Below are positions 39,190 to 56,129 of a DNA stretch of 64,000 nt, in pieces. Position numbers and translations under genes: made by a program. The notes below the pieces were generated by a model. The model was not told the DNA's origin. It worked only from the letters and a program-made list of their open reading frames with translations, and made no database searches. Position 1 is the stretch's first letter. Each line of letters opens with the position of its first letter. The stretch is from Polyangium mundeleinium (GTDB lineage: Bacteria; Myxococcota_A; Polyangia; Polyangiales; Polyangiaceae): the NCBI RefSeq assembly GCF_028369105.1, contig NZ_JAQNDO010000001.1, positions 3,155,001-3,219,000 of the forward strand. Direction: 5' to 3'.

Positions 39190-39876
39190 CTAGATCCGGC
39201 GCGTCCGGCGGAGCTCGGCCCCAATGGCCATTTCGAGCGCGCTGCCGAGGTCGGCGCGCAGGATCGCCGGCGCGAAATCGAGCCCCTGCTCCGCGGCCGT
39301 ACGGGCCGCCGCCGCCGAGACGCCGCAAAGCACGACGCGTGCCCCGAGCAACGATAGCGCCCGCGCGATTCGCACGAGGCCCGCGGCCACGACGGGATCA
39401 ATCGCCGTGGCCCCCGTGATGTCGAGGATCACCGTGCGCGCGCCCGCCACGGAGACCTGCGCGAGCACGCGCCCCTCGGCCTGCGCGAGCATCGAGGCGT
39501 CGAGCGCCCCCGCCATCGGAACGAGCAAGACGCCGCGATACACCTCGAGGACAGGCGCGGAGAGCTCCCGGACCGCCGCGAGCAGCCGCTCCTGCTCCGC
39601 GCGCGCCTCCTCCAGCTCCTTCACGCGCGCTTCGAGCTCTTTGCGCCGCGCCTCGTCCCGCTCCCGGCCCCGGCGCAGCTCCCGCGCCACGCGGGCCACC
39701 ATGTTCGCCACGATTCCAAGCTCGTCCGTGCGCTCGATGAGGGGGAGTTCCTCGTATCGACCGAGCAGGACGCGGCTCATCCGCGCGCCAATCCAGCGGA
39801 GCAGCTCCATCTCTTCGTCGAGGAGCCGCGCGGCGAGCGTCGACTTTTGTTGTTCGGCCTCTGCCTTTTCGCTCAT
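39190..39876 (-). CDS. STAS-domain protein with HAMP-like and coiled-coil N-terminus
   Basis: A 228-aa cytoplasmic protein. Residues 35-70 resemble a HAMP or related dimerisation segment ('LIERTDELGIVANMVARVAREL') without membrane helices, followed by a long charged coil (about 65-110). The C-terminal STAS domain (about 112-215) has 'VILDITGATAIDPVVAAGL', close in pattern to the STAS region of the PAS-STAS protein at 33228-34814 ('VVLDLTGLETIETHTADHL'). It is probably an RsbR-like signalling component. ATG 39876 is chosen over an upstream ATG that would overlap the preceding gene; it lies 10 bp after that gene's stop. Confidence 0.8.
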   Translation of the reverse strand: MSEKAEAEQQKSTLAARLLDEEMELLRWIGARMSRVLLGRYEELPLIERTDELGIVANMVARVARELRRGRERDEARRKELEARVKELEEARAEQERLLAAVRELSAPVLEVYRGVLLVPMAGALDASMLAQAEGRVLAQVSVAGARTVILDITGATAIDPVVAAGLVRIARALSLLGARVVLCGVSAAAARTAAEQGLDFAPAILRADLGSALEMAIGAELRRTRRI

Positions 39877-39886
39877 CGGATGGCGC

Positions 39887-40462
39887 TCATTCCTGCCATC
39901 GCGTGTCGAGTGTGCAGAAAGGGGCACCGTTTCGGATGCACGTCGAATGCGTGATCTCCACGTCGTATCCGTCGAGCGCCTCGATGAACCCGCGCAGCCC
40001 GCCGGCCTCGAAGTGGCAGTTGAAGGGCTGACGCGACTCGACGATCGCGTGCCGCGCGCCCTTCATCGTGGCGTGCCACGTGCCACTGTCGCCCCGGGTG
40101 GCAAAGGTCCACATGGCCGGGAGCTGGACCATGAAATCAGTCGCGGTCTTGATCCCGAGCTCGTGGAGCTGGGTACGGAACATGAAATAGATGTTCCGGC
40201 CGATGAGCTCCGGAAGCGCGGGATCCCGGTCTTCGAGCTTGTTGAGGATCGTCTCGAGATCCTGGCCGAGATACCAGGCCGCAGGGTCGATGTCGCGGCA
40301 CGCTGCGACGTATTCCGGCGGGACGTCATCCCCGCCGACAGTCACGAGCATGGTAAACAGGCTTCCCAGCGTCAGCGTCGGCCCGGAGCGGTCTTCCGTC
40401 CCGGGATCGGGGTGGGCCTTCAGCTCCAGCGGCGCATAACGCGAAAACCGTTGCATACGCAC
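39887..40462 (-). CDS. V4R/haem-NO-binding-like sensory protein
   Basis: A 191-aa cytoplasmic protein I cannot name with certainty. The C-terminal region 'CHFEAGGLRGFIEALDGYDV' then 'TCIRNGAPFCTLDTRW' fits the V4R/HNOB-like small-molecule-binding fold, where Cys residues in this place bind ligand or metal. The central region 'LHELGIKTATDFMVQLPAMW' also fits that family. Many myxobacterial genomes encode such stand-alone modules. Its position 10 bp upstream of a STAS protein suggests it is the sensory input for that protein; this is inference. Confidence 0.6.
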   Translation of the reverse strand: MRMQRFSRYAPLELKAHPDPGTEDRSGPTLTLGSLFTMLVTVGGDDVPPEYVAACRDIDPAAWYLGQDLETILNKLEDRDPALPELIGRNIYFMFRTQLHELGIKTATDFMVQLPAMWTFATRGDSGTWHATMKGARHAIVESRQPFNCHFEAGGLRGFIEALDGYDVEITHSTCIRNGAPFCTLDTRWQE

Positions 40463-40519: not shown

Positions 40520-40753
40520 TCAGTAATGTTGGTCGAGGATGGCGGGATCCGCCGTCACGGAGAATACTTCATTGCAGCGGCGACAGCGGTATTTCACCTT
40601 CGTCGGCCGTGCGGAGATGCCGAAGAAGAGGCGGAGATACCCGGATATGGTGTAGACGCCCTCGGGGCTCACCAGGTGGTGCTCGCGGCCATGGCCGCAG
40701 GCGCAGGTCCGGGCCTTCGATTCGGAGGAGGCGATCGTGGGTTCCTGGGTCAT
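40520..40753 (-). CDS. Small zinc-ribbon-like protein
   Basis: A 77-aa protein with two metal-ligand pairs: 'CACGHGREHH' near residue 17-26 and 'YRCRRCNEVF' near 55-64. The spacing suits one structural zinc. There is no signal peptide and I recognise no family. The gene starts 2 bp after the stop of the exported lipoprotein gene and is the last of the ABCG/TonB-receptor operon. ATG 40753 is preferred because upstream sequence in this frame is an antisense-like shadow of the lipoprotein gene. Confidence 0.7.
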   Translation of the reverse strand: MTQEPTIASSESKARTCACGHGREHHLVSPEGVYTISGYLRLFFGISARPTKVKYRCRRCNEVFSVTADPAILDQHY

Positions 40754-40755
40754 GG

Positions 40756-41832
40756 TCACTCCACTCGGATATAGCGCTGCACGTAGGTCGAGCCACCACG
40801 CGTGTCGCGAACGACCCCCCAAATCTGATAAAGGCCGGGCTCGGCGGGCGGGATCCATTTCGTGCTGTGCTCGTCTTTGTAGCCCTCGGTCACGCCGCTG
40901 ATGAGCGAGATTCCGCCGCCCGTGAGGTCGCCTGCTTCGACCAGCCAGTCGACCCAGACCGCCTCGTAAATCTGCTCGCCGCCGACCATTTCGCCGGGAT
41001 CGATCTCGGCGATCGTGGGCTCGACGATGAGGTCGAGCTCGTGCTCGGGGCAATTCTCGTAGGGGTCGCCCGCGAAGCACCCGACGGCCCGGCGCTCGTC
41101 GACCGTGGAGGGGCAAGCCTTGATCGTCGGCGCCTCGGTGAAATCCTCGGGGATGGGCTCGCCGTCGAGCGTCATGCCGGCGACGGGCGGGTTCTGGTTC
41201 GTCCGGCCGTCCTCGAAAGTGTAAATCTGCGAGAACCCGGGGACGAAGCTGTCGGCGGCGAGGCGATTGCCCGCGGAATCGAAGCAGCCGAACGGGAAGA
41301 AGCCCGCCTTGCCCGAAGGGTCGAGCTCGATCGGCTTGATCTCGCCGGCGCAGGCGAAGAAAAACACGAATTGCAGGCCGTACTTCGAGCCGCCGTCGGG
41401 CGTCGGGCGCTGGGAGAGGATGTCCTCGGGAATGGTGGTCGTGAACGTCGGCCCGAAGCCGATGAGCCCGGGCGGGAGGTTGCCGCCGCTCTCGCCGAGG
41501 CTCTGGAAGGTCTTCAAGAGCTGCGGGAAGCAGCCATAATAGAGGTCGCCCGGCGGGTTGTAGCAGCCGCCGATCCAGAGGATCTGGACGGGGCGCGGGC
41601 CGTCGCCCTCGGGGTCGGGGTAGCCGTCGTAGAAGGACATGTCGAAGCGGACCTCTTCGCCCGGCTGCGCGTAAGGTTTGTCCGCAGTGACCGAGAAGAC
41701 CCGCAGGCCATTGACGAGGTTCGACGACACCCAGCCAGGCGAGCAGCCGCTCGCAGAGGCGATCGGGGCGGCGAGCGTCGCGGCCGCGAGCGCCCCGAGC
41801 ACGTGACGTCGGAAGGAGCGCGTGTACTTCAT
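40756..41832 (-). CDS. Exported lipoprotein of unknown function, TonB-receptor partner
   Basis: A 358-aa protein with a Tat-like or Sec signal ('RSFRRHVLGALAAATLAAPIASASGC'; lipobox Cys30). The body is beta-rich with eight or more Cys residues, for example 'GGCYNPPGDLYYGCFPQ' and 'VGCFAGDPYENCP', and two strands that look like Ig-type domains ('VFSVTADKPYAQPGEEVRF' at the start, 'PAEPGLYQIWGVVRDTRGG' at the end). It follows the TonB-dependent receptor by 24 bp, as SusD-like surface partners do, although it does not resemble SusD. It may be the substrate-capture lipoprotein of that receptor. Confidence 0.75.
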   Translation of the reverse strand: MKYTRSFRRHVLGALAAATLAAPIASASGCSPGWVSSNLVNGLRVFSVTADKPYAQPGEEVRFDMSFYDGYPDPEGDGPRPVQILWIGGCYNPPGDLYYGCFPQLLKTFQSLGESGGNLPPGLIGFGPTFTTTIPEDILSQRPTPDGGSKYGLQFVFFFACAGEIKPIELDPSGKAGFFPFGCFDSAGNRLAADSFVPGFSQIYTFEDGRTNQNPPVAGMTLDGEPIPEDFTEAPTIKACPSTVDERRAVGCFAGDPYENCPEHELDLIVEPTIAEIDPGEMVGGEQIYEAVWVDWLVEAGDLTGGGISLISGVTEGYKDEHSTKWIPPAEPGLYQIWGVVRDTRGGSTYVQRYIRVE

Positions 41833-41856
41833 CCCATTCCCTCCTCGCGAATCGGC

Positions 41857-44558
41857 CTAGAAATCACCACGAATGCCGAAGCTCGGCAGGATCGGCACGC
41901 CCGTCACGTATTGCCGCGCGGTGTAGTTGAAGTTGTAATCGATCCCCTCGACGTTCTGGCTGTTGTAGACGTTCTGGACGTCGAGGTAGAGCGAGAGCTG
42001 CCAGCTCTTGAAGCGGAACCGCCGATCGAGGCGAATGTCGAGCTGGTGGAACATGGGGAATCGCTCGCTGAACGGGCCGCTGTACGGGATCGCCACGTAG
42101 GTGCCGACGGCGGCGTTGTAAATGGAGTTCGCGCGATTTGGGATGCAGCCTTCTTGCTCGAAGTTGCAGACGTTCGGCGTCGTGAGGTTGCCAGAGACGA
42201 GGCGGAACCGCGCGCCGAACTCCCAGCCGCCGCCGAGGCGATAACTGCCGAGCGCCGTGAGGATGTGCGTCTGGTCGAAGGAGATAGGCTGCTCGTCGGC
42301 GCCGGGGAGCGGCGTGCGGAGGCTGCGCGAGAGGGTGTAGGCGACCAGCCGAAGAAGTTCGCGTCGGCCTTGTACTTGAGCAGGAACTCGGCGCCGAAAA
42401 TACGGCCCTTGCCGAGGTTCCCGCGCTCGGTGCTGCCCCCGACGGCCGCGGGCTGCTGGGAGATGAGGCGATCGAGCTGCTTGTAAAAGCCTTCGACGCT
42501 GAGCTCGATGTTGCGCGAAAATTCCTGCTCTGCGCCGATCGCATAATGAATGGCGCGGTTCGAACGGAGCCCGGGCGTGCCGAACGGAGGGATCGTCTCC
42601 TGCGGCTGCGGCGGTTGGGTGTACGCGCCCACGCCGCCCTTGAGCGTCGAGCGCGGGAACTTGGAGGTGAGGTCGATGCGCCCATTGACGCGCGGAGAGA
42701 TGTCGATGCCGTCCACGCGGTTGTAGCCGTCGACGCGAACACCCGGGACGAGCTTGGCCCGTCCCGTCGGCGCGATCTCGAGCTCGACGTAGCCGGCCGG
42801 GCTGACAATCCAGCCGCTGAACTCGGATTCGATGAGGGGGCGCGTGGAGAAGGGGCCGCCCGAGGGCTCGCCCGCGCGCGGCGGCGCAGGGCCGCGGTAC
42901 TTCGCGTCGGCGTAGTTCGTGAACACGTCGAGGCCGGTGTTCAGCGTGAGGCCCTTGCTGATGCGGCGCGTGTACTCGGCTCGACCGCTGATGCTGTAGT
43001 TCGTGAGGTTGAAGAAGAAGGGGCCGACGCCGAAATCGAGCTGGTCGATGCCGACCGCAGCGACCGCGGAGAAGCGGTTCTTGTCGTCGATGTCGTTGTC
43101 GTAGCGGAGCTGGATGCGGTGAAAGCCCGTGTGAAACCCCGCGTTGCCGCTGATCGCAGGCTCGCCGGGCGGAGGCTGGTCGGCGATGAGCGCGATGGAG
43201 TCGTCCGCGCCGAAGAAGGTGAGGCGCACGCTCGAGCTCGGCGTCGGGTTCGCCTCGAGGCCGAGCTGATAGTCCCAGTAGACGGGGAGCTGCGTGATGC
43301 CCGCGCCCGCGGCGTCGAGGGCGAGGCCGAGCGTGGCGTCGAGGTAGCTGCGCCGCGCGCCCGCGATGAAGCGGACCTTGTTCTTCGTGCCAGGCACGGG
43401 GCCCTCGGCGATGAAACGCGCGTCGACGAGGTCGGCCTGCGCCATGCCGTGGTACTTGCCGTCGTTCTTGGGCGCGCGGACCGCGACGTCGACGATGCCG
43501 CCCATGACGCGGCCATACTGGGCGCTGAAGTTGCCCGGGAAGAAGTCGATGCGCTCGATCATCTCGGTCGGGACGACCGAGGACAAACCACCGAAGTGGT
43601 AGATGAGCGGGATCTGGGTGCCGTCGAGGAACGTCTGCGTATCCTGCGGGGCCGAGCCACGCACGAGCAGGATGCCCGCGATGGCAGGCGGGCGCGCGAC
43701 GCCGGGCAGGTTTTGCAGCGCGCGGAGGGCGTCGCCGTTCGTGCCCGGGATGCGGAGCATCTCGCGTTGTTCGAGCGTCCGCTTCGTGACCTCACGCGGC
43801 GCGCGCGCGCCACGCACGACGACTTCGAGGCCGTCGCTCGTGGCGACGAGGCGGTACTTGACCTCGATGGACTCGCCCGCGGCGATCTCCTCGGTGACGT
43901 CGAGCGCGTCGTAGCCAGGCGCCGTGATGATCACGCGGTACTTGCCCGGCCCGAGCGCGTCGAAGCGGAAGTTGCCGTCGCCGTCGACCGTGGCTTCGTT
44001 CTGCCCGGAAGGGCCGCTGAGCAGGACCGTGGCGCCAGCCAGCGGGACGTCGCCGCCGCTCGCGAGCACGACGCCGCGGAGCGCTTCGCTGGCCTGCGCG
44101 GCGGAGGGTTTGTCTCCGGAGCCGGCGTCGGGCGGAGGCTCAGCCTTCTTCAGCGCGAACGAGTAGCGGTAGAGGATGCGCGCGGCCGCAGGCGTGCCGT
44201 CGGCCTTGCGCGCAGGCTCGAACTCAAGCTTCTTCGCGGCCTCGACGGCCGACTCGTCGAAGCCGTGCCCCGCGGGCTCGATGACGACGACGTTCTTGAC
44301 CTTGCCGGTCTTGTCGATGTCGAGCTGGAGGGTGACGGTGGCTTCGAGCCCGGCCTTCTCGGCCTCGGGCGGATACACCGGCGGCTGGTAGTTGAGCGGC
44401 CGGGGCATCGCGGCCCCCGTGGGCGCGGCGGGCGCGCTCGGGGAAGGCGCGTCGCCGGGCGGGGCAGGCTGCGCGAGGGCAGGGGTGGAGAAGGTCCCGG
44501 CGACGAACCCCGCGAGGACGAGGGCGAGGGCGCTCTTCTGGCAAGGAAGCAGGTTCAC
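41857..44558 (-). pseudogene. TonB-dependent receptor with N-terminal TonB-CTD-like domain, -1 frameshift
   Basis: An outer-membrane active transporter of about 900 aa if intact. The signal peptide is about 1-29. Residues 55-140 resemble the TonB C-terminal domain ('PPVYPPEAEKAGLEATVTLQ', 'AAKKLEFEPARKADG'). A carboxypeptidase-regulatory-like domain follows (about 158-240), then the plug (about 245-380, 'LRIPGTNGDALRALQNLPGV') and the barrel. After 'ANFFGW' the frame changes: barrel sequence resumes as 'AYTLSRSLRTPLPGADE' and runs to 'GIRGDF'. The span of 2702 bp is one base short of 901 codons; adding one G at 42345-42346 repairs it. Sequencing error is likely. Start is 4 bp after the ABCG gene. 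Confidence 0.85.
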
Positions 44559-44562
44559 GTGG

Positions 44563-47500
44563 TCATACCGGATCGCGGCGCTTCAAGATGATGCAAAGGA
44601 CGACGACGAGGGAGATCGTGAAGCCCCCGAGCACCGCGAAGGGCAGCCACGTGTTCTCGTAGTTCGTGAAGCCCCAGCCGCCCGCGAGGTTGTCGGAGGC
44701 CATCTGCGCGATCGAGCACTTGAACTTGCCAGCCTCGATGAAGTCGGCAGGCGCGCTCTCGGTGCGGCCGAGATCGATGACCCACGAGGGATCCTCCTTG
44801 AGCGCGATGCGCTCATGGACGATGGAGCCCTCGAAGCCCCAGCGGGCGGGCATGATCATCATGAGGGGCTTCAGGTGGGGGACCGTCGTCATCGGGACCA
44901 TGAGCCCCCCGAGGACTACCTGAGGGATGAGCGCGAGGGGCGTCAAGGCCATGGCCGCCTCGGAGGAGGTGACGACGGTCGAGAGGAGGAGCCCGAGCGC
45001 GACGGCCGCGAGCGAGGTGGCCACGAGCGAGGCGAGCTGCATCAAGAACGCAGCGGGGCCGCCATGGAAGCCGAGCGTGAAGAACACGATCGCGAGAAGG
45101 ATCGTGCACTGCACGATGCAGAAGAACGCGAGCAGGATGTACTTCGAGAGGACGTAGTTGAGCAGGCCCAGGGTGACCATGCGCTCGCGCATGTAGATGG
45201 CCCGCTCGGCCACGATCTCGCGCGCCGAGTTGGAGGTGCCGAACCAGACGGCGGCGACGACGAGGAAGAAGATGGCGCCGGTGTTGTCGGCGGTGGCCGT
45301 CATGCTCTTCAAGATGTTGTCGGTGCTCGTGTTGCCGCCGAACTTCTTGCCGAGCTCCTGGAGCGCGCCGAGGCACCACGCAGGGACGGCCTTCTCCTGC
45401 CAGCCGAACACGATCGCGAGCAGGACGCCGATGATCGGCGCCTGCGCGAGCATGATGGCCGTGCCGGCGGTGTCTCGCATCTTCGTCTTGAAGTAACGCG
45501 AGAGCAGGAGGCCGAGCTGGCCCTTCGTGGTGGCGCGTCGCTCGGGGATCGCGCGCTGTCCCTGGCCGGCGCCTATCTCGCGCCGGCCCGTGTACATCTT
45601 CCGGTAGGTGGGGTTCTGATCGCTGAAGTACTCGCGGCGCCACTCGAGCGCGGCGTTTTTCCTCGCGGTCCCGCGCGGCACGTTCGGATCGCGCGCGCGC
45701 ATCGCGTCGTAGAGGGCCTTCTCGCGCGAGGCGATCATCTCGAACATGTCGCGCGGGTTGTCGATGTCGTTGCGCTGGCCGGCGCGCTCCTTCCACGTGC
45801 CGAAGAAGCGGTACGACTCGCCTTGCGTGGGGCCGAAGAAGATCGGCACGCCGCCGTAGCCCATGGTCAGCGTGTGCGTGAACTTCTCGTACTCGTCCTT
45901 CGCCGGCTGATGGATCGTCATGATGATCGTCTTGCCGGTCGCCTTCGTGAGGTCGTGCAAGAGCGTGATCAGCGCGGTGGTGTCGTCGGCGGCGAGGCCG
46001 GAGGTGGGCTCGTCGAGGAAGAGGATGACGGGGTCGGTGACGAGCTCGAGCGCGATGTTGACGCGCTTGCGCTGACCACCGGAGAGGATCTTCTTCTCGG
46101 GCTTGCCGATCTGGAGGTTCTTCACGCCCTCGAGGCCGAGGTCCTTGATCGTCTGCTCGACGCGCGCGTCGATCTCCTCCTCGGAGTAGTCGGGCGGGAG
46201 GCGGAACTTCGCGCTGTACTTCACGGCCTCGAAGACCGTGAGCTCGGGATGCACGAGGTCGTCCTGCGGGACGTAGCCGATCGAGCCGCGCAGGTTGTCG
46301 TAGATGTTGTAGAGGTCCTCGCCGTTGATGCGGACGACGCCGGAGGTCGGCGGGAGGTAGCCGTTCAACGTGAGCAAGAGCGTCGTCTTGCCCGCGCCCG
46401 AAGGGCCCATGAGCGCGATCATGTCGCCCGGGAGCGCCTTGAACGAGACGTCGTCGAGCAGGCGCTTCATCTCGCTCGGGTTGTCGCGATCGGGGACCTC
46501 GAGGACAAGGCTCCACGCCTCGATCTCGTAGAGAGGTTTGCCCGCCCAGCGATCGGCCGAGTACTCCTCCTGGACGACCTGGACCGCGCCCGAAGAGCCG
46601 AGCTCGATCTGGAGCGGCATCGGGCCGATGAAGAACTTCTCGCCGCTCTGGATGCCGATCTTCTGGCCCGGCGGGATGCGCTGGCCGCGGACGTACGTGC
46701 CGTTCGCGCTGCCGCGATCCTCGACGAAGAGCTGCCCGCTGATCTGGTGCACGAGCGCGTGGCGGCTCGAGACCTGCGGCTGCTGAATGACGATGTCGTT
46801 GTCGGGCGTGCGGCCGATGCTCTTCTGCCCGCCGCCGCTCGGCCCCGCGAAATCGAGCTGGCCAAGGACGGTCTTGTTCTTCTTGCCCGGCGCGCCCGCG
46901 GCCGGCGCAGCACCCGAGACGGGCGGATATCCTTGCGGCTGCGCGGGCGGGTAGCCCTGCGCTTGTGCAGGCGGATAGCCCTGCTGCGGCATCGAGACGT
47001 TCGTCTGTGGCATGGGCGCCGAAGGCTGCTGCGCATACGCGCCGCTCGGCACGGGCGCGACGCCGCCACGCGAGGCCTGCGCGAGGCGCGCGAGGAGCTC
47101 GACGGGAACAGGCACGGGGCCAAACGCGACGACGCCGCTCGGATCGATCGGCGTGGGCTGCGCAGCCTGGATCTTCGTGGTGCCGACGTACGTGCCGCTC
47201 GTCGAGCCGTTGTCGACGACGAGCATGCGATCGAGCATCACGGTCGCGTGCTGGCTCGACACGCTCGGGTGTTGAAGGACGAGCGAGGCGCGCGCCGGAT
47301 CCCGGCCGATCACGAGCTGCCCCGCAGGCGCAGGCGTGCTGCCCGTGGTCATGATCGACAGGATGATCGCGGGGTGGCTGAGCGGGACGGGCGCGCGGCC
47401 GACGACGAACTGGGTGCGGAAGTCGAAGGGGACTTCTTCACCCGGGGCGAGCTGACGGTTGTTCGCGAACGAGGGCGCCGCGCCGCCGCCGATGAACACG

Positions 47501-47625
47501 AGCCTGCCGCCGCCCTGATGGACGAGGCGCGCGTGTTCGGGCGCGACGCTGGGATCCGCGATGACGACGTCGCACGTGGGAGCGCTGCCGATCGTGAGGG
47601 TCTGCTTGCCGAAGCCGGGGACCAT
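44563..47625 (-). CDS. ABCG-type ABC exporter with N-terminal FHA domains
   Basis: A 1020-aa half-transporter with fused ATPase and permease. FHA-like domains lie at about 1-95 (degenerate), 118-175 ('LVIGRDPARASLVL...SSQHATVM') and 262-340 ('SIGRTPDNDIVI...SSRHALVH...GSANGTYVRG'), with a Pro/Gln/Gly linker between the second and third. The ATPase has Walker A 'GPSGAGKTT' (about 406), signature 'LSGGQRKR' (about 515), Walker B 'VILFLDEP' and 'IMTIHQPAKDEYEKF', the WHITE/ABCG pattern. Six or seven C-terminal helices form the ABC-2 permease. FHA domains bind phosphothreonine, so export is probably gated by a Ser/Thr kinase and reversed by the PP2C phosphatase encoded just upstream. Confidence 0.92.
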   Translation of the reverse strand: MVPGFGKQTLTIGSAPTCDVVIADPSVAPEHARLVHQGGGRLVFIGGGAAPSFANNRQLAPGEEVPFDFRTQFVVGRAPVPLSHPAIILSIMTTGSTPAPAGQLVIGRDPARASLVLQHPSVSSQHATVMLDRMLVVDNGSTSGTYVGTTKIQAAQPTPIDPSGVVAFGPVPVPVELLARLAQASRGGVAPVPSGAYAQQPSAPMPQTNVSMPQQGYPPAQAQGYPPAQPQGYPPVSGAAPAAGAPGKKNKTVLGQLDFAGPSGGGQKSIGRTPDNDIVIQQPQVSSRHALVHQISGQLFVEDRGSANGTYVRGQRIPPGQKIGIQSGEKFFIGPMPLQIELGSSGAVQVVQEEYSADRWAGKPLYEIEAWSLVLEVPDRDNPSEMKRLLDDVSFKALPGDMIALMGPSGAGKTTLLLTLNGYLPPTSGVVRINGEDLYNIYDNLRGSIGYVPQDDLVHPELTVFEAVKYSAKFRLPPDYSEEEIDARVEQTIKDLGLEGVKNLQIGKPEKKILSGGQRKRVNIALELVTDPVILFLDEPTSGLAADDTTALITLLHDLTKATGKTIIMTIHQPAKDEYEKFTHTLTMGYGGVPIFFGPTQGESYRFFGTWKERAGQRNDIDNPRDMFEMIASREKALYDAMRARDPNVPRGTARKNAALEWRREYFSDQNPTYRKMYTGRREIGAGQGQRAIPERRATTKGQLGLLLSRYFKTKMRDTAGTAIMLAQAPIIGVLLAIVFGWQEKAVPAWCLGALQELGKKFGGNTSTDNILKSMTATADNTGAIFFLVVAAVWFGTSNSAREIVAERAIYMRERMVTLGLLNYVLSKYILLAFFCIVQCTILLAIVFFTLGFHGGPAAFLMQLASLVATSLAAVALGLLLSTVVTSSEAAMALTPLALIPQVVLGGLMVPMTTVPHLKPLMMIMPARWGFEGSIVHERIALKEDPSWVIDLGRTESAPADFIEAGKFKCSIAQMASDNLAGGWGFTNYENTWLPFAVLGGFTISLVVVLCIILKRRDPV

Positions 47626-47731
47626 GCGGGCTACCTTTCACCACGAACGTCCGCGGAGAGCAACGGGGACGGCCGCGCCTCGCGTGACGGAAGCAGGATA
47701 GGCGCGCCGGGGCGGCGTTCGCCAGCGGTGT

Positions 47732-49099
47732 TCAGCGCAGGAAAAGCGCCCAGATGAGCAGGAGGAGCAGCACCGCGATCACGGCCGACATGCCGATGAT
47801 CACGTACACGATGCCCGCCTGGGAAGGACGCCCGCGGGTCGCCACGGAAATCGGCACTGACGGGACGGGCGAAGGGGCCTCCGGCGGGTGCGTCTTCGAG
47901 GGGCCCTGGCCCGAGACCTGGGTGGCCTGGGGAGGCGCATAACGCGCCGAGGGCGGCGGCAAGGGGAGCTGGGCCGCGAACGGCGCGAGGCGCGGCTGCT
48001 CGGGCATCGTGGGCGAGGGCGCGACGGGGCGATCCACGGCCGTCGGCTGCACCGGGGCAAAACCCGGCGACGAGGGCGAAGGCGGAGGCATGGGCAGGCC
48101 GCTCTGATCTGGCGCGGTCGGCGCCGCGGAGGAGGCGGCAGGCGAGAGCAAGGTGGGGACCGGCACGGGCGGGGGCAGGCCGAGCTTCGTCCCCGTCGCG
48201 GTCTTCGCCGTGTCGACCGCGGTCATCGGTCGCGTCTCCTGCGGGGGCGCGGGCCGCGGGCTCGTAGGCTCCGGCGCGTTCGCGGGCGCCTGCGGGATGG
48301 TGTGCGACGCGCGCGGCGCGTGCTCGACGATGCGTACCATCTGCACGGTGATGTTGTCGTGGCCGCCGCGATCGTTCGCGAGGTTGACGAGCTGGTTGCA
48401 AGCGTGCGGGAGCGCGCCCGAGGCGAGGGCCTGGCGCACGGCGCCGAGGATGTCGACGCCGAGGACGAGGTCGGTGAGGCCGTCGCTCGACTGGAGCAGG
48501 ATGTCGCCCGGGAACATCTCCATCGGCTCGGGGCGAACCTCGACCTCGACTTCGGGGCGCATGCCGAGGGCGCGCGTGATCTTGTTCGCGTCGGGATGCC
48601 CGATGGCCTCGGCCTCCGTGAGCATGCCGGCGTCGATCATGCCCTGCACCATCGAGTGGTCTCGCGTGAGTGGGTAGATCTGGCCCGCGCGGATGCAGTA
48701 GGCGCGGCTGTCGCCGACGTGCGCGACGTCGAGGCCACGATCACCGATGAGCATGGCGACGACCGTCGAGCCGGGCCGCCCGCGGTTCTCGGGCGGCCCG
48801 CCGAGCTGGTACACGCGACGCCCGGCCTCCTCGATCGCGGCCTTGAGTGCGGCCGCGGCCGTGGCGCCGGGCGGGGCTTGATCGATGACCTCGAAGATCG
48901 TGGCGATCGCGGTGCGGCTCGCCTCCCGGCCTCCGTAATGCCCGCCCATGCCGTCGCAGAGGACGACGAGGTGGCCGAAGCGCGTCTCGGCGTACCCGCA
49001 CGAGTCCTCGTTGACCTGCTTGTTCGGATCGCGGCCAGGATCGCTGGCCTGGGCGAACTCGATCCGGACGCGGGTGCCGAGGGCCTGAGGGTCGCTCAT
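47732..49099 (-). CDS. PP2C-family Ser/Thr protein phosphatase, membrane-anchored
   Basis: A 455-aa phosphatase. The catalytic domain (about 10-265) has the metal-binding motifs 'NEDSCG', 'VLCDGMGGHYGG', 'VAHVGDSRAY', 'SSDGLTDLV' and 'GGHDNITVQMV', as in PstP/Stp-type bacterial PP2C. A long Pro/Ala/Ser linker (about 275-425) ends in one C-terminal membrane helix ('GIVYVIIGMSAVIAVLLLLLIW' region), so the enzyme faces the cytoplasm from the inner membrane. It lies between two FHA-domain membrane proteins on the same strand and is the obvious eraser of their phosphothreonine marks. Confidence 0.94.
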   Translation of the reverse strand: MSDPQALGTRVRIEFAQASDPGRDPNKQVNEDSCGYAETRFGHLVVLCDGMGGHYGGREASRTAIATIFEVIDQAPPGATAAAALKAAIEEAGRRVYQLGGPPENRGRPGSTVVAMLIGDRGLDVAHVGDSRAYCIRAGQIYPLTRDHSMVQGMIDAGMLTEAEAIGHPDANKITRALGMRPEVEVEVRPEPMEMFPGDILLQSSDGLTDLVLGVDILGAVRQALASGALPHACNQLVNLANDRGGHDNITVQMVRIVEHAPRASHTIPQAPANAPEPTSPRPAPPQETRPMTAVDTAKTATGTKLGLPPPVPVPTLLSPAASSAAPTAPDQSGLPMPPPSPSSPGFAPVQPTAVDRPVAPSPTMPEQPRLAPFAAQLPLPPPSARYAPPQATQVSGQGPSKTHPPEAPSPVPSVPISVATRGRPSQAGIVYVIIGMSAVIAVLLLLLIWALFLR

Positions 49100-49150
49100 C
49101 GCGGAAGGGCCGGGGGGTGGAGGCCGGGACGACGATCGTTCGAGTGTAGA

Positions 49151-51337
49151 CTACTCGAAACGGACGTTGAACTCGATGGGCCCGAAGCGGAGCATCGCGC
49201 CGGGCGAGACGGGCGTCCACACGAGCGGCGGGATGCGGTTGCCGTTGATGCTCGTGCCGTTGTTCGAGTTCTCGTCACGCACGAAGAGCTGGCCGTTCTC
49301 GAACTTGACGACGGCGTGGCTGCCGGAGACGCGCGGCTCGTTCACCACGATCTGACACGTCGCGGCGTCGCGGCCGACGCGCATCTCCGTGCCGGGGTTG
49401 AACGTGAAGATGCCGAGCGAGCCGGAGAGCACCGCGCGGTTCGCGGCGCCGCCCACGGGGCCGCCACCCATCGGAGGAGGACCGTACCCGCCGCCGAAGT
49501 CCGGGCCGCCCATGCCGGGCATGCCGCCGCCCATGGGCACGGCGGGCGCGTAGCCGCCGCCCATCGGAGGCGAGCCACCGCCAGGACGCGGGGCCGTCGT
49601 GGGCGCGGGGCCTGTGCGGCGCTTGTTGCCGCCGCTGCGGAAGATCGAGACGGCGAGCAGGACGAGGACGACGCCGCCGAAGGTGATGGCGCCGATGAGC
49701 AGGTAGGGCAGCGGCGCTTCTTTCGCCTTCACCGTGATGATCTTGTCGGCGGTGATGGCGCTCGTGCGCTTGGCCTGGTTGTCGTAGACGACGAGGCGCG
49801 CGGTCATCTGATCGCCCTTGCCGGCGAGGAACTTGTCCGTGTTCGGAAGTTCGAACTCGACCATGCTCTCGCCGGCCGTCGTGGCCTTGCCGCGCATGCC
49901 TTGCTCGATGAGCGTGCGCTGCGCCTTCTTCGCGTCGTCGATGCTGCCGCCCTGGAGCGAGGCGGGCGCGGGCTGGTTCTTCGGGACCATGTAGAGCTCG
50001 GCCCGCTGCGTGTTGCCGCCCCAGCAGAAGTTGCCGAAGACCTTCACGGTCCCGCCCGGGTGAACCGGATCCTTCTGCGCGGCGCGCTCGGTGGCTTCAC
50101 GATCGATGTCGAGCGGCCACTGCGAGGGGTCGATGCCGACGGGCACGTTCTGGAACGTCGCGTCGCCGGCGATCAACGGATCGGTGTTGAGGAACGCGAG
50201 GCGGAAGGTCTGCGTCAAGCTCAGCGCGACACACGAGACGCGCCACTTGACGATGTGCATCTTGTTGAAGCGCGAGCGCACCGCGTTGACGATGTTGACC
50301 GCGCGCGATTCCTGCCTGTCGCGCAGGATGCTGTAGTAGCCGCCGATCTCGGGGTTCGAGAGCCCTTCCATGAACTCGCGCGAGTTCGCGGCGAACTCCT
50401 CGACGAGCTTGCTCGGGAACCAGACCGAGATGACCGGCACCGGCGTCTTCGGGAGGACTTCGTTGTTCTCCGGGAAGCGGCCCTTCGTGAGGTAGTCCTT
50501 GAGCAGGTTCGAGGCCGCGGAGTTCGAGCTCGGATCAGCGCCAGCCGCGCCGTTCGAGAGCACGACCATGGCTTGGTGCATGGGCACGACGACGTTCGTG
50601 CCGACGTTGCCGAGCTCCTTGAAGCCGTCGGTGGCCGCGGTCTTGATGATGTTGAAGAGCGGGCGCGTGCGGCCCTGCGTGGGGAACGTGTTCTTGACGC
50701 TCGAGATCGTCTGGAGCGCCGTCTGCTTGTTGTTCACCCACTTCGAGTCTTCGACGACGCTCTTGTCGTTGAAGAACATCACGTCGACGATGTCGTTCGG
50801 GCCCATCGCGTTGACGAACGCGGTGGCGACGGACTTCGCTTCGTCGAAGCGCGTGCCCATCGAGGACGCGGCGTCGATGAGGATGAGCCATGCGGTGCCC
50901 ACGCCGGGCTGGCTCGTGCTCTCACCCCAGCGCGCCTTCGACTCGAACCGGGCCACGGTGTCGGAGCCGTCGACGACGACGGTGAGCACCGCGTTCTTCT
51001 CCGGGAAGTCGAACGACGAGTAGAGCGCGTTCGGCTGCTCGACCGCGTTCGCCACGCAGTCGTAGAACGCGTCGCCGTTCAGCGCCGCGCAGGGCCGCGT
51101 CGCGTCCGACATGCGCTTGTTCTGGACGAGGTCGATCACGGTCGTGAGCACGGGCGAGCCGTCGACCGTGCTCGTGCGCGGATCGATGCGGAGGATCTTG
51201 GCCTCCGGAGCGGCGAAGGAGGGCGCGGTGGCGAAGAGGATCGCCGCGAGCGCCGCGAGCGCGGGGAGCGCGAACAGGGGAGCTTTGCGCGCCGATCGAG
51301 CGACGGCGCGGGCGGCTCCGTGGGGCAACGGGTTCAT
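49151..51337 (-). CDS. VWA-domain membrane protein with C-terminal FHA domain
   Basis: A 728-aa protein. The N-terminus has a signal or anchor helix (about 22-42). A von Willebrand A domain (about 140-345) begins 'WLILIDAASSMGTRF': the MIDAS reads D-x-A-S-S, so the usual first Ser is Ala and metal binding may be altered. A beta domain (about 400-560) leads to a membrane helix (about 562-585), a Gly/Met/Pro-rich linker (about 595-650), and an FHA domain (about 655-720, 'RVGRDAATCQIVV', 'RVSGSHAVV', 'ENSNNGTSING'). The VWA part would be periplasmic and the FHA part cytoplasmic, linking envelope ligand binding to phosphothreonine signalling. Confidence 0.88.
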   Translation of the reverse strand: MNPLPHGAARAVARSARKAPLFALPALAALAAILFATAPSFAAPEAKILRIDPRTSTVDGSPVLTTVIDLVQNKRMSDATRPCAALNGDAFYDCVANAVEQPNALYSSFDFPEKNAVLTVVVDGSDTVARFESKARWGESTSQPGVGTAWLILIDAASSMGTRFDEAKSVATAFVNAMGPNDIVDVMFFNDKSVVEDSKWVNNKQTALQTISSVKNTFPTQGRTRPLFNIIKTAATDGFKELGNVGTNVVVPMHQAMVVLSNGAAGADPSSNSAASNLLKDYLTKGRFPENNEVLPKTPVPVISVWFPSKLVEEFAANSREFMEGLSNPEIGGYYSILRDRQESRAVNIVNAVRSRFNKMHIVKWRVSCVALSLTQTFRLAFLNTDPLIAGDATFQNVPVGIDPSQWPLDIDREATERAAQKDPVHPGGTVKVFGNFCWGGNTQRAELYMVPKNQPAPASLQGGSIDDAKKAQRTLIEQGMRGKATTAGESMVEFELPNTDKFLAGKGDQMTARLVVYDNQAKRTSAITADKIITVKAKEAPLPYLLIGAITFGGVVLVLLAVSIFRSGGNKRRTGPAPTTAPRPGGGSPPMGGGYAPAVPMGGGMPGMGGPDFGGGYGPPPMGGGPVGGAANRAVLSGSLGIFTFNPGTEMRVGRDAATCQIVVNEPRVSGSHAVVKFENGQLFVRDENSNNGTSINGNRIPPLVWTPVSPGAMLRFGPIEFNVRFE

Positions 51338-51593
51338 GCTTGAGCCTCCAACATGGGGGGTCCTCGGCGGGCCGGCGCAGGCGCGGGGTGACGAGCACCT
51401 TCGCGCGCGCGCGTGGTCCACGAGCGTGGCCGCCGCGTGCTCTCGTGCGTCGAGGCAGGGAAGCACGTCCGCCCTGCGCGATGAGCGCGGGGGACGGCTG
51501 CCTCGGGCGACGCGAGCGCGCGGGGGCGTCATCTCGTCGAGGAGCTGGATAGGGTGAAAAGGGCGTTTCGCACGGGGCTTCTCCGCGCGACCC

Positions 51594-52871
51594 CTAGGTC
51601 CGAGCCGTCACGATGATGGTGATGACGCTGAAGCCGCCGAAACGGATCTTGTCGCCGTCACGCAGCTCGCGCCTGCCCTTGAAGCCGATGGCTTCCTCGT
51701 TGTGGAAGGTGCCGTTCGTCGAGCCGAGATCACTCAGGATGAACCTCCCACCTTCGCAGTCGATCGTCGCGTGATGCGTGGACGTCGTGCCGTGCGCGAT
51801 CTCCACGTCGACCTTTTGACCCGTGTCCGCGCGGCCGACCGAGTTCTTGCCCTGCCAGAGCGGCCAGAACTTACCGAGCGGATCCTCCTGGTAGCTCACC
51901 AGGAAGCCTGCGAGCGCGCGGCGGCCGTCGGGGCTCGGCGCGGCTCCTTGCCGACCGGGCATCGGCGGAGGGGTCCCCGGGACCGCGGTCGCGGCGTTTC
52001 CGCGCCCAGGCCCCCGCGGCGGCTCGAAGCTACTTTCGGGCTTCGGCGGAGGCCCGTACCCCTCGAGTTTGTCCGGCATCGGCGGCGCGCCGAACGCCCG
52101 GGGTCCAGGCGGCGGGGGATACCCACCGGCCGCGGGCTCCGGCGGAGGCGGCCCGAAGCCTGGGGGCGCAGGCGGAGGCCCGAAGCCTGGGGGCGCAGGC
52201 GGAGGCCCGAAGCCGGGGGGCGCAGGCGGCGGCCCGAAGCCACCCGGGGCCGGAGGCGGACCAAAACCCGCGGGCTCCGGCGGAGGCGGCCCGAAGCCTG
52301 GGGGCGCAGGCGGCGGCCCGAAGCCTGGGGGCGCAGGCGGCGGACCAAAACCGCCCGGCGGGGAAGGCGGCTCGGGGGGCGGCCCGAAGCCTGGCGGCGC
52401 AGGTGGCGGCCCAAAGCCGGCCGGCGACGCAGGTGGCTCGGGAGGGGGCCCGAATCCAGGCGGCGCAGGCGGGGGCCCGAATCCACCGGAAACCCCCGGC
52501 GCCGCCGGGGGCGGCCCGAACGCGGGGGGCGGCGGAGGCGGTCCGAAGCCACCCGGCCCGGGGGGCGCGCCGAACGCAGGAGGCGGCGGAGGTCCGAACG
52601 CAGCGGGGTTTGCTGTGGGCGAGGGGGGCGGCCCGTAGCCGCCGCCGAAGCCGGGTGGAGCCGGCGGGGGCGGTCCGAAGCCCGGCGGCTCGGGAGGCGG
52701 TCCGAAGCCCGGCGGCCCAGGCGGAGGTCCGAAGCCCGGCGGTTGCCCGAAGGCGGGAGGGGGCGGAGGAGGACCAAAGGCGCCGGGCCCCGGAGGTCCG
52801 AGCGGAGAGGCACAGATCGCGCAGAACTTGTCGGCGGGTGTGGCAGGCGCGCCGCAACGCGGGCAGTTCAT
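51594..52871 (-). CDS. Zinc-ribbon/FHA protein with long Pro-Gly-Phe repeat
   Basis: A 425-aa protein with three parts. An N-terminal zinc ribbon has Cys3, Cys6, Cys17 and Cys20. A low-complexity region (about 24-270) is built on the nonapeptide PGFGPPPAP and variants. A C-terminal FHA domain (about 345-425) has 'NSVGRADTGQKVDVEI', 'TSTHHATID' and 'DLGSTNGTFHNE'. It has no signal or membrane segment. The repeat may act as a flexible spacer or phase-separating region. ATG 52871 directly precedes the zinc ribbon; upstream codons show no homology. It is the most upstream of the FHA genes. Confidence 0.88.
   Translation of the reverse strand: MNCPRCGAPATPADKFCAICASPLGPPGPGAFGPPPPPPAFGQPPGFGPPPGPPGFGPPPEPPGFGPPPPAPPGFGGGYGPPPSPTANPAAFGPPPPPAFGAPPGPGGFGPPPPPPAFGPPPAAPGVSGGFGPPPAPPGFGPPPEPPASPAGFGPPPAPPGFGPPPEPPSPPGGFGPPPAPPGFGPPPAPPGFGPPPPEPAGFGPPPAPGGFGPPPAPPGFGPPPAPPGFGPPPAPPGFGPPPPEPAAGGYPPPPGPRAFGAPPMPDKLEGYGPPPKPESSFEPPRGPGRGNAATAVPGTPPPMPGRQGAAPSPDGRRALAGFLVSYQEDPLGKFWPLWQGKNSVGRADTGQKVDVEIAHGTTSTHHATIDCEGGRFILSDLGSTNGTFHNEEAIGFKGRRELRDGDKIRFGGFSVITIIVTART
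52130..52800 (-). repeat. 27-bp tandem-like repeats encoding PGFGPPPAP
   Basis: The coding sequence repeats a 27-bp unit (on the plus strand GCGGAGGCCCGAAGCC followed by TGGGGGCGCAG) with point changes and short insertions, more than fifteen times. It is strongly purine/pyrimidine biased between strands (plus strand G/A-rich), which could give replication slippage and length variation. Confidence 0.85.
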
Positions 52872-53237: not shown

Positions 53238-53594
53238 TCAGCCGTCCTTGGCGTCGCGCACGCGGGCGGCCTTGCCGGCCAGCGAGCGGAGGTAGAACAA
53301 GCGCGAGCGACGAACGACGCCGCGCGAGACCACCTCGATCTTGTCGATGCGGGGGCTGTGCGTCGGGAAGATACGCTCCACGCCCACGTTGAAGCTCACC
53401 TTGCGGACCGTGAACGTGCTGCGCGCACCAGCCCGATGTTGCTTCAAAACGACGCCCTGGAAGACCTGGATACGCTCCTTCTCGCCCTCGACGATGCGGT
53501 AGTGGACCCGGACGGTGTCGCCGACCCGGAACTCCGGGAGCCCCTCGCGGAGCTGCGGGGTTTCGATCTTCGCAAGTACGTTCGAGGTGAGCAT
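53238..53594 (-). CDS. rplS: 50S ribosomal protein L19
   Basis: A 118-aa ribosomal protein at the 30S-50S interface. '[20 protein letters not shown]' and 'QVFQGVV' are the conserved beta core, and '[18 protein letters not shown]' with 'RRSRLFYLR' the C-terminal signature. Length is normal. In most bacteria rplS follows rpsP-rimM-trmD; here it stands alone with a strong promoter of its own, downstream of jag. Confidence 0.97.
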
Positions 53595-53674
53595 GTCGCG
53601 GTCCTTCGACTGGGGATGGTCCCGGCTGTTGGGGCAAACGGCTCCACGCCTGCCGGAGACGACGAGGGAGCGGC

Positions 53675-53702
53675 ATTATGCATACCGTCCCCACGCTGTC
53701 AA
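53675..53702 (-). promoter_or_regulatory. Sigma-70 promoter of rplS
   Basis: On the minus strand a perfect -35 TTGACA (53697-53702) and a -10 CATAAT (53675-53680, five of six consensus bases) are 16 bp apart. Transcription would start near 53668, giving a leader of about 74 nt before the rplS start. It is the best consensus promoter I see in the window. Confidence 0.68.
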
Positions 53703-53776
53703 CCGATCATGGAGCGTGTGGATGCGGTGGATCGCGGGGCGACGAACTCACCGCCCCGTACGATCGCTTCGGACAA

Positions 53777-54376
53777 TCAACGGCGAACGGGGATGATCTG
53801 CACGCGGCGCGCGTCGCCTTCGCCGTCGCTCTTCGTGACGACGCCGGGGAACTTCGCGAGCGCGAGGTGCACGACGCGGCGATCCTGCGGGTTCATCGGC
53901 TCGAACGTGATGATCTTCCCCTCCTCGACGGCCTGCTTGCCGAGGCGACGGGCCATCGAGGTGAGCGTCTCCTCGCGGCGCGCGCGGTAGCCCTCGGCGT
54001 CGATGATCACGTGGCGACGCTGCTTGCCAGGCCGGTTGATCACGCGGTTGGCGAGGAACTGCAGCGCGGCGAGCGTCTGGCCCTTCTTGCCGATGATGCG
54101 GCCGGCGTCCCTGCCCTCGATCTCCAGCCGGATCTCCTCGGGCGGATCTTCCGGCTCGTTCTCGAGCAGGTCCACGGTGCAGTCCATGCCCATCGCGGCG
54201 AGCGTATCGATGACGAAGTCGAGCGCTTGATCGGCGCGACCATCCTCCTCGAACGGGGCTTTCGCCTCGGCGGCGCGCTCGTCGCGCTCGTCGTCGTCGT
54301 GCCGGGTGCCTTCGGCGTTCACGCTGGTCTTCCCGGGAGCTCCATTATCCACGGACACGTGCCTTTCCCTTTCCAA
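53777..54376 (-). CDS. jag: Jag/KhpB RNA-binding protein (KH and R3H domains)
   Basis: A 199-aa RNA-binding protein encoded with YidC in most bacteria and linked to envelope and cell-division control. After an acidic N-terminus (1-45), the KH domain (about 80-140) has the loop 'GRIIGKKGQTL'; the R3H domain (about 145-199) has 'EPMNPQDRRVVHLAL', with the R-x-x-x-H motif. The start is uncertain: ATG 54376 overlaps yidC by 32 bp, and GTG codons at 54358 or 54352 preceded by GGGAAAGG would shorten this overlap. Confidence 0.9.
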   Translation of the reverse strand: MERERHVSVDNGAPGKTSVNAEGTRHDDDERDERAAEAKAPFEEDGRADQALDFVIDTLAAMGMDCTVDLLENEPEDPPEEIRLEIEGRDAGRIIGKKGQTLAALQFLANRVINRPGKQRRHVIIDAEGYRARREETLTSMARRLGKQAVEEGKIITFEPMNPQDRRVVHLALAKFPGVVTKSDGEGDARRVQIIPVRR

Positions 54377-56129
54377 GAGCAGGCGCCGACTTGGTTTCGT
54401 CGCCCGAAGATTTCGCTGGCTTCTCGCGCACCTCGATGCCGGCGGGGCCCTGCGTCTTGCGGCTCAGGTAGCGCTCGACCGCGACCTGCTGGGCGATGCC
54501 GAGCCACGTGTTGGTCAGCATGTACACGCCGAGGCCTGCGGGCAGGTAGAGCATCATCACCACGAAGATGCCCGGCAGCATGTACTGCATCATCTTCTGC
54601 TGCATCGGGTCGCCCTGCGGTGGCATGAGCTTCTGCTGGAAGAAGCTCGACGCGCCGAGGATCACGGGGATGACGAAGTAGGCGCCCTTGTCCGAGAGAT
54701 CCGGGATGATCCGGGCCGACAGGAAGGGCACGTGGTAGAGTTCGACCGCCGTCTGTAAGGCCTGGTAGAGCGCAAACCACACGGGCATCTGGAGCAGCAC
54801 CGGGATGCAGCCGAGCACCGGGTTCGTCACGCCGTGCTTGCGCCAGAGCTCCTGGAGCGCGAGGCCGCGCTGCGCGGGGTCGTCCTTGTAACGAGCGTTG
54901 AGCTCGTCCATCTCCGGCTTGAGGCGGCGCATCGCCGCGCTGCTCTTGATCTGCGAGATGCTGAGCGGGAAGAGCAGCATGCGCACGGTGATCGTGAGCA
55001 GCGCGATCGCCCATCCCCAGCTCCCCACGGCCTTGTGGAGGATCTTCAGGTAGCCGACGAGGACCTTCGCGATCGGCGAGAACGTGCCGAGATCGATCAC
55101 CTCGGTGATGCCGGGGCCGGCAGCCGCGAGCACCTCGCGCTCCTTCGGGCCCGTGAAGCTCAGGACCTTGTACGTCTGCGTCGCCTGCGGCGCGAGCTCG
55201 ACCTCGGGGTACGCGAGGCGCGCGCGGTAGACGTGACCGTGCGTGTCCTTGTCCTTCTCGCGATCCGCCGCGTTGTACTTGGCGCGGTTCCAGTCCTCTT
55301 CGATCTGCGTCTCGGCAAACGCCGCGGGGCCTTCGACCGGGATCGCGGCCTTCGTGAAGTAGACGCTGCTGACGGCGACCCACTTCGCGGCGCCGGGGCT
55401 GCGGCGCCAGAGCTCGTTCGTGAACTCCTTGTCCTTGAAGTCCTTCGGCTCGAACGCGTCGGCGTGCAGGCGATCGACCTTCTCCGTCGTCGCCGCGACG
55501 ACGTCCGTCATGTGCTCCGAGATGCGGCCGAGGCTGCCCTTGGTCTCCTCGGTCGTGCGCCACGAGGTCTGGTCCACCGTGAGCCTGTGCTTGAGCGGCT
55601 CGGCGGAGAGGTTCTTCACCTCGAGCGTCATTTCGAGTTCGAAAGGTTTGCCCGTCTCGCGCACAACCTTCGTGAGCTTCGAGGACGCGTCCTCGTAGAC
55701 GAACGTGCACGACTTGCCGTCCTGCGCTGCGAGCGTCCAGTCGAGGTTGTCGTAGGGCGTCTGCTGCTTCGCGACCCCGGGCAAACGCAGGTCCGTGCGC
55801 AACGGCTGGCGCCACTCCTGCGAGGTCGTGACGAGATCGATCGGCTTGCCGGCCTTCGAGTACTTGCCTTCATCGGTGAGCCGAAGGTGGCGCAGCGAGC
55901 CGCCACGCGAAGACAGCTCCGCCTCGAAGCGCGGACCGTTGATCGTGCAAATCTGCTCCGGCTGCCTCTTGTCGTCCGGCAGCCGATCGGCGTCGTAAAA
56001 CGTGTTCGGCTGGACGTCTTCGTTGCCCTTGCCGAACAGGCTGCCGCCGAACTGCCAGAACAGGATGGCAGCGATGCCGATGAGCACCCACTGAACGATT
56101 TTGCCGCGTTCCATGAAATCCTTCGGCAA
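54345..56129 (-). CDS. yidC: Membrane protein insertase YidC
   Basis: A 594-aa insertase that places proteins in the inner membrane, alone or with SecYEG. The first helix (about 12-30, 'IVQWVLIGIAAILFWQF') is followed by the large periplasmic beta-sandwich domain (about 55-345) typical of Gram-negative YidC. The conserved core (about 365-570) has 'GSWGWAIALLTITVRMLLFPLS', which includes the positively charged groove Arg, 'CIPVLLQMPVWFALYQAL' and 'MMQYMLPGIFVVMMLYLPAGLGVYM'. The tail is Lys/Arg-rich. Gene order rpmH-rnpA-yidD-yidC-jag is the conserved one. Confidence 0.97.
   Translation of the reverse strand: MPKDFMERGKIVQWVLIGIAAILFWQFGGSLFGKGNEDVQPNTFYDADRLPDDKRQPEQICTINGPRFEAELSSRGGSLRHLRLTDEGKYSKAGKPIDLVTTSQEWRQPLRTDLRLPGVAKQQTPYDNLDWTLAAQDGKSCTFVYEDASSKLTKVVRETGKPFELEMTLEVKNLSAEPLKHRLTVDQTSWRTTEETKGSLGRISEHMTDVVAATTEKVDRLHADAFEPKDFKDKEFTNELWRRSPGAAKWVAVSSVYFTKAAIPVEGPAAFAETQIEEDWNRAKYNAADREKDKDTHGHVYRARLAYPEVELAPQATQTYKVLSFTGPKEREVLAAAGPGITEVIDLGTFSPIAKVLVGYLKILHKAVGSWGWAIALLTITVRMLLFPLSISQIKSSAAMRRLKPEMDELNARYKDDPAQRGLALQELWRKHGVTNPVLGCIPVLLQMPVWFALYQALQTAVELYHVPFLSARIIPDLSDKGAYFVIPVILGASSFFQQKLMPPQGDPMQQKMMQYMLPGIFVVMMLYLPAGLGVYMLTNTWLGIAQQVAVERYLSRKTQGPAGIEVREKPAKSSGDETKSAPALGKGKARVRG

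Follow-up and report, generated by a model that had tools for sequence, protein, structure and literature searches.

Four of seven consecutive genes of Polyangium mundeleinium form a conserved block of FHA readers, a PP2C phosphatase and an ABCG exporter

Do seven consecutive minus-strand genes of Polyangium mundeleinium, combining FHA domains, a PP2C phosphatase, an ABCG-type transporter and a TonB-dependent receptor, belong to one phosphothreonine-controlled system? The genes are located at 40520-52871 of the window, i.e., the whole stretch of 64,000 nucleotides that was analysed (contig NZ_JAQNDO010000001.1, positions 3,155,001 to 3,219,000). They are named A, B, C, D, E, F and G in 5' to 3' order. 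A preliminary description of this DNA had reported the seven-gene run, and its layout is confirmed. The conserved module can be told apart from a lineage-specific neighbour, so that four genes have to be considered, not seven: the readers, the eraser and the ABCG exporter (A-D) are a conserved four-gene block in two families. The core idea of the preliminary description, i.e., readers plus eraser plus exporter, holds for this block. We consider it rather probable that A-D are a phosphothreonine-switched ABCG exporter that works like Rv1747, with an unlinked Hanks kinase and a membrane-anchored PP2C that resets the switch. To our knowledge, few kinase circuits of myxobacteria have been wired up. 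The block brings together a reader set, an eraser, an output and short peptides (TAVD, TLVD, TVID and like) as candidate FHA ligands. Its features are the following (TM, transmembrane segment).

51594-52871, minus strand: gene A, soluble protein with a zinc-ribbon-like N-terminus (below the Pfam cut-off), Pro/Gly-rich repeats and a canonical C-terminal FHA domain (51636-51842); no TM.
49151-51337, minus strand: gene B, N-terminal TM or signal, VWA-like domain, TM 547-565, linker and canonical FHA domain (49181-49381).
47732-49099, minus strand: gene C, phosphatase of the PP2C type (catalytic motifs conserved) with a Pro-rich linker and a C-terminal TM 431-449.
47810-48325, minus strand: linker of gene C, between the PP2C core and the TM, enriched in TxxD/E; the window sites are TAVD, TAPD, TAVD and TMPE.
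44563-47625, minus strand: gene D, FHA1 (47431-47595) degenerate, FHA2 (47119-47313) without the Asn, FHA3 (46627-46821) canonical, fused to an ABCG-type half transporter.

Pfam assigns FHA domains to A and B (one each) and to D (three), PP2C to C, and ABC_tran plus ABC2_membrane to D. These matches agree with the FHA proteins, the phosphatase and the exporter with FHA domains of its own that were first described. The genome (13.25 Mb) contains 77 FHA matches, 5 of which fall within 5.2 kb at A-D. The zinc ribbon of A scores 20.7 bits for a Pfam cut-off of 27 bits. The hydropathy profile gives one TM at the C-terminus of C and two TM in B; the FHA domain of B and the PP2C would be cytoplasmic, and the VWA-like domain periplasmic.

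Gene B had been described as a VWA-FHA protein. The FHA part stands. The VWA part is not seen by Pfam in any of the 17 orthologues (E 0.01) and has support from profile comparison: with hhalign, the VWA-like region matches the 21 VWA domains of the genome at 94.7% (E 6e-8) vs. 0.3% for two controls. The metal site is degenerate in Polyangium, with DAASS and LSNG vs. DxSxS and LSDG in MIDAS (metal ion-dependent adhesion site), i.e., the MIDAS is not intact. The first motif varies from DADAR to DASSG in the other rows of the family of the window and is DASSS in those of family f8 (defined below). The AlphaFold model of B residues 46-600, obtained with five near-identical Polyangium sequences, has a mean pLDDT (predicted local distance difference test) of 35.1, too low for the model to be used. 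The genome probably encodes the VWA-FHA architecture at other places too. VWA and FHA matches are found together at G000:C1:636020-637468 and 783580-785061, with the same open reading frame (ORF) length for both domains (649 and 981 aa).

In gene C, D49, G50, D130, D206, D248 and N249 are invariant in 19 of 19 rows; the metal-binding residues of PP2C are all present. The protein passes the Pfam PP2C cut-off and reaches 188 bits with NF033484, below the cut-off of that model (230 bits). In gene D, the FHA3 residues G271, R272, S286, H289 and N308 are invariant in 23 of 23 orthologues. T252 (46870-46872), located just ahead of FHA3, is also invariant in 23 of 23 orthologues, including those of family f6; it is either a candidate phosphorylation site or a part of the first FHA strand. 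ABCG chains are among the best solved-structure matches of D, and for its FHA part, both FHA domains of Rv1747 with a solved structure (6cah and 6ccd) are matched.

Conservation in D is highest in the ABCG core, whose nucleotide-binding motifs are invariant, thus transport is under selection. This result bears on a first alternative, in which the VWA-FHA protein and the PP2C act in an assembly or stress complex of the ArnA-ArnB kind, the ABC transporter being a mere membrane scaffold. FHA and vWA proteins do interact in ArnA-ArnB (PMC6509490), and the FHA regions of both B and D match ArnA. The conservation of the transporter core speaks against a scaffold, and we regard this alternative as very improbable.

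How far is the block conserved? The survey covered 96 genomes of the order, of which 27 belong to the family of the window (f1); the other families are f3, f5, f6 and f8. Gene D, counted as present at E <= 1e-60, has orthologues in 50 of the 96 genomes and in 24 of the 27 genomes of f1. The f1 loci that were read are 23 in number (the window, L039-L042, L071-L079, L081 and L083-L090); in the 24th f1 genome with D, G086, the gene is split over contigs and lies outside these 23. A-B-C-D are contiguous in 12 of the 23 loci. Of the remaining 11, eight keep the block in part or with an interruption: an insert precedes D after A-B-C in two of them and after B-C in two more (A being beyond the stretch read), B is absent from three (A-C-D), and C is absent from one (A-B-D). 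D stands alone in two loci, and a contig end truncates the last one. In f8, 2 of 3 loci have the whole A-B-C-D and the other one is truncated. Conservation of gene order had been proposed as a check: the four-gene order passes it and the seven-gene order fails. The inserts of L078 (copper ATPase and toxin-antitoxin-like genes) and L089 (oxidoreductase and histidine kinase), named from sequence with no family search, were judged unrelated.

Gene B was searched in 30 genomes (10 of f1, 3 of f8 and 17 of f3, f5 and f6) and found in 10, i.e., 7/10 in f1 and 3/3 in f8; it was not found in any of the 17 genomes of f3, f5 and f6. Three f1 genomes have no D at the cut-off; among them, G032 and G069 have no B either and G076 has B. 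The genes tested, from B to the neighbouring gene H, are under purifying selection, with a ratio of non-synonymous to synonymous substitution rates (dN/dS) of 0.125-0.237; gene A was left out of this test.

The conserved order could also be explained without any joint function. A-D would then be neighbours of the L19 region held together by slow rearrangement, the FHA proteins and the PP2C serving different kinases. In 10 loci besides the window, an L19 gene is located upstream of A, so that the order may partly be synteny by descent; in some genomes B is found away from the block, B and D are not always together, and inserts split C from D in 4 loci. On the contrary, the A-B-C-D order is also found in f8, where B is only 29-34% identical, and it holds in f1 loci without L19 in the stretch read, e.g., L083. 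The common phosphothreonine chemistry and the FHA-ligand motifs in the PP2C linker also speak against mere neighbourhood. We regard this explanation as rather unlikely.

These motifs were counted in the linker of C, using one linker per genus (14 genera, 129 Thr) and shuffles as the null; the rows are related, thus the shuffles overstate independence. Rows without the end motif (5 of 19) were dropped in one run, the near-copies L109 and L039 were dropped for a run on 17 tails, and the window was omitted in a leave-out run. TxxD occurs 13 times vs. 3.9 expected (0/2000 shuffles as high), and T-x-[ILVFM]-[DE], a hydrophobic form picked after the data had been seen, 13 times vs. 1.4 (0/2000). The values for Ser and Ala are not raised (SxxD/E: 1 vs. 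6.8; AxxD/E: 10 vs. 13.7). With the window omitted, TxxD remains at 10 vs. 3.7 (10/5000) and the hydrophobic form at 11 vs. 1.3 (0/5000). When six residues and six spacings to Asp are compared, again with the window omitted, Thr at +3 stands out most (10 vs. 3.5), and Thr at +5 gives 7 vs. 3.6. The 27 background Pro-rich segments of other proteins have 2 vs. 2.6 for the hydrophobic form, 13 vs. 9.3 for TxxD, 22 vs. 16.6 for TxxD/E (85/1000) and 24 vs. 16.6 for [DE]xxT (36/1000). TxxD/E is present in the C linker of 8 of the 11 f1 genera tested.

FHA domains are known to bind phosphothreonine followed by Asp at +3, e.g., pTEAD of Rad53, and pT+3 selectivity is discussed for FHA I of Rv1747 (PMC5549992). 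The enrichment in the C linker thus suggests that the eraser itself may be docked onto the readers. Two other counts were set aside: T...[DE] in the D linker (9 vs. 1.6) was attributed to the invariant stretch around T252, where FHA3 begins, and the hydrophobic form in the B linker (2 vs. 0.2, 41/2000) is too rare to be used.

The Rv1747-like exporter can be described as follows. An unlinked Hanks kinase would phosphorylate Thr residues in flexible segments of A-D, probably including the TxxD/E sites of the C linker. The canonical FHA domains (FHA3 of D and those of B and A) would bind the phosphorylated sites. The exporter, the VWA-FHA membrane protein and the soluble FHA protein would thereby cluster at the inner membrane, and export of a putative substrate would change. 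The tail-anchored PP2C would reverse the phosphorylation; it may be recruited via its own phosphorylated linker, i.e., a negative feedback. The VWA-like domain of B may report the state of the envelope. A further step is proposed only tentatively, as it seems possible and somewhat doubtful: several TxxD/E sites in the disordered linker of C, once phosphorylated, would bind the FHA domains of A, B and the exporter in one membrane cluster, and the recruited phosphatase would dissolve this cluster, giving a self-limiting switch. If true, a reader-docked-eraser circuit would govern an exporter.

Several results weigh against the phosphothreonine-switched exporter: (i) FHA1 and FHA2 of D do not have the canonical residues, and the FHA matches of D are unspecific, ArnA and GarA scoring equal to or better than Rv1747; (ii) B and D are sometimes apart, B being present without D at the cut-off in G076 (f1) and G007 (f8), and D without B in G092; (iii) in f6, A-C are absent from the stretches read around D in 11 of 11 loci, a few of these stretches being short, thus the transporter can work without A-C; (iv) searching the window with two kinases as queries gave no kinase homologue, and only 3 of 26 loci of f1 and f8 have a Hanks kinase next to the block or within it. 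The linker is concerned as well, through the relatedness of its rows and the late choice of the hydrophobic form noted above. Moreover, the +4 spacing (TxxxD/E) is also raised (16 vs. 8.1, 6/2000), and in the 17 whole C tails, TM included, +4 and +5 reach 30 vs. 19.1 and 32 vs. 18.9, +3 being the highest (44 vs. 19.1). Three of the 14 genera have no TxxD/E (L073, L078 and L089), the three f8 genera have no TxxD, and the linkers of B and D have no clear TxxD enrichment.

Where could the writer be? The preliminary description had noted that the kinase is missing from the cluster, and this is extended here to the window: none of the 150 listed kinase matches of the genome (329 candidates) is located within it. 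The genome has at least 150 kinase matches. Hanks kinases do occur near the block in relatives. Two of them flank an MFS/TLC-like gene (weak match) between C and D in L072 (L072:11405-16916); L082 and L091 have 72% identical Hanks kinases, divergent, beside A; the kinase matches of L071 and L085 are several kb from the block. The f8 kinase was compared with 31 same-family genomes, and 65 of 344 candidates were scored. Matches of 49-54% at E 1e-70 come from 13 of these genomes; among the 65 candidates scored, no match is found in the own genome of the window. The match is on another contig than D in all five genomes with a known D contig (G063, G051, G038, G080 and G086). The linked kinases are considered as leads only, since with many kinases per genome chance neighbours are expected.

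What about the genes downstream of D? They are the following.

41857-44558, minus strand: gene E, receptor with TonB_C, CarboxypepD_reg, Plug and barrel; the frame is broken (GG for GGG at 42345-42346).
40756-41832, minus strand: gene F, exported lipoprotein of no Pfam family, paired with E.
40520-40753, minus strand: gene G, 77 aa, Cys-containing, no Pfam match.

The preliminary description had joined these genes to A-D as one system, with the ABCG exporter and the TonB receptor both under the control of phosphothreonine signalling. The spacings that it gave are found again on the same strand, i.e., 4 bp between D and E, 24 bp between E and F (a distance valid only with the shifted frame of E) and 2 bp between F and G. 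The D-E-F order is kept in three genera although E of the two other genera is only 48-61% identical to E of the window, and it is also found in four further Polyangium loci. These points favour a single system. The wider distribution points the other way. F is found in 37 of the 96 genomes, including 27 of 27 of f1. In the 32 F loci chosen for reading among all F matches (from 30 genomes, 26 of f1 and 4 of f8), E always adjoins F. The pair is present in all 27 f1 genomes, even in the three without D at the cut-off, and directly follows D in only 5 of the 23 f1 loci read and in none of the 3 loci of f8. This adjacency needs 2 changes on the tree of D (34 rows), i.e., one clade of three genera and one loss. 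G is found only in Polyangium: besides the window, 4 of the 5 relatives from this genus have it, and in L109 it is not among the predicted genes. Gene H, located behind G, is present in 5 of 5 relatives; neither G nor H is found in the other 31 F loci read. A seven-gene system is therefore improbable. The receptor and the lipoprotein, first taken as outputs of the circuit, are a pair of their own that lies elsewhere in most genomes. We take E-F to be a separate outer-membrane uptake pair, which came to lie just downstream of D in one clade, in which D and the pair may share a transcript.

The domains of a TonB-dependent receptor are present in E; a single open frame is not. In the window, Pfam finds TonB_C, CarboxypepD_reg and Plug, and the barrel is split by a frameshift near 42345, where a GGG run is one G short. 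GGG and an uninterrupted receptor ORF are kept by five Polyangium relatives, and Plug and barrel are both found in the intact orthologue of L109, which is a TonB-dependent receptor. The frameshift is either a sequencing error or a very recent mutation, since the stretch behind it still has a dN/dS of 0.16. E carries the TonB C-terminal domain at its own N-terminus, ahead of CarboxypepD_reg and Plug, and the alignments of most relatives extend there.

F is 97% identical to its counterpart of P. fumosum. Its profile has no match among solved structures, and only 1 of 24 members is matched by Pfam (DUF6658, E 0.053). The AlphaFold model of F, from five near-identical Polyangium sequences, has a mean pLDDT of 34.5 and was not used. 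G, described before as a small zinc-ribbon protein, does not match any Pfam family.

Around the seven genes, the following was observed.

39887-40456, minus strand: gene H, weak V4R match below the cut-off, in Polyangium loci only.

H is followed, 10 bp on, by a gene for a STAS protein; these two genes behind G are on the same strand (39190-40456). H is probably outside the A-D module. Upstream of A, at 53238-56114, are found L19, KH-R3H (KhpB/Jag-like) and YidC genes, with a promoter-like site (11/12) ahead of L19. Another FHA protein of the window is an FHA-containing sigma-54 activator (17703-19058).

How does the block compare with known systems? No published description of the A-D block was found in the partial texts of the openly licensed literature that were available. 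The statement that no system of this composition has been described is nevertheless too strong, since an FHA-ABCG transporter, its Hanks kinase and a reversing phosphatase are known from Rv1747-PknF-PstP (PMC3908365, PMC9312465). The ABCG-type exporter Rv1747 of Mycobacterium tuberculosis has two FHA domains and shares an operon with its kinase PknF, which phosphorylates it and modulates it positively (PMC3908365). Condensates formed by the FHA region of Rv1747 are promoted by phosphorylation and reversed by PstP (PMC9312465). D has the same plan, i.e., N-terminal FHA domains, a disordered linker and an ABCG half transporter, and Rv1747 provides the example of control by a Hanks kinase with reversal by a phosphatase (PMC3908365, PMC5549992, PMC9312465). 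The FHA-ABCG fusion and the canonical FHA residues (FHA3) are shared; a kinase in the same operon is not, thus the block is said to work like Rv1747 and is not filed in the Rv1747 operon type. D has three FHA domains and Rv1747 two, and the kinase is unlinked in most Polyangium-type loci.

ArnA-ArnB of Sulfolobus is similar in that an FHA protein and a vWA protein act together under phosphorylation (PMC6509490). It differs in that it controls archaellum expression, and the FHA and vWA parts, separate there, are fused in B with a TM between them. Outside the block, the N-terminal TonB_C region of E resembles the MxcH-type siderophore receptor of myxobacteria (NCBIfam NF038079, 91 bits, model positions 2-107). 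The rest of E is unmatched and the score is far from the cut-off (91 vs. 925 bits), so that E is not a member of the MxcH myxochelin receptors. Finally, the vWA/PP2C/kinase triads of the TerY-P type associate a vWA protein with PP2C and zinc ribbons; in contrast, the block of the window is without a linked kinase and has FHA and ABCG instead. Relative to Rv1747, what differs, judging from the sequences, is (i) a linked and tail-anchored PP2C, (ii) two FHA partners, encoded by an FHA and a VWA-FHA gene, in a Gram-negative envelope, (iii) TxxD/E sites resembling FHA ligands in the linker of the phosphatase and (iv) a kinase that would act from outside the block.

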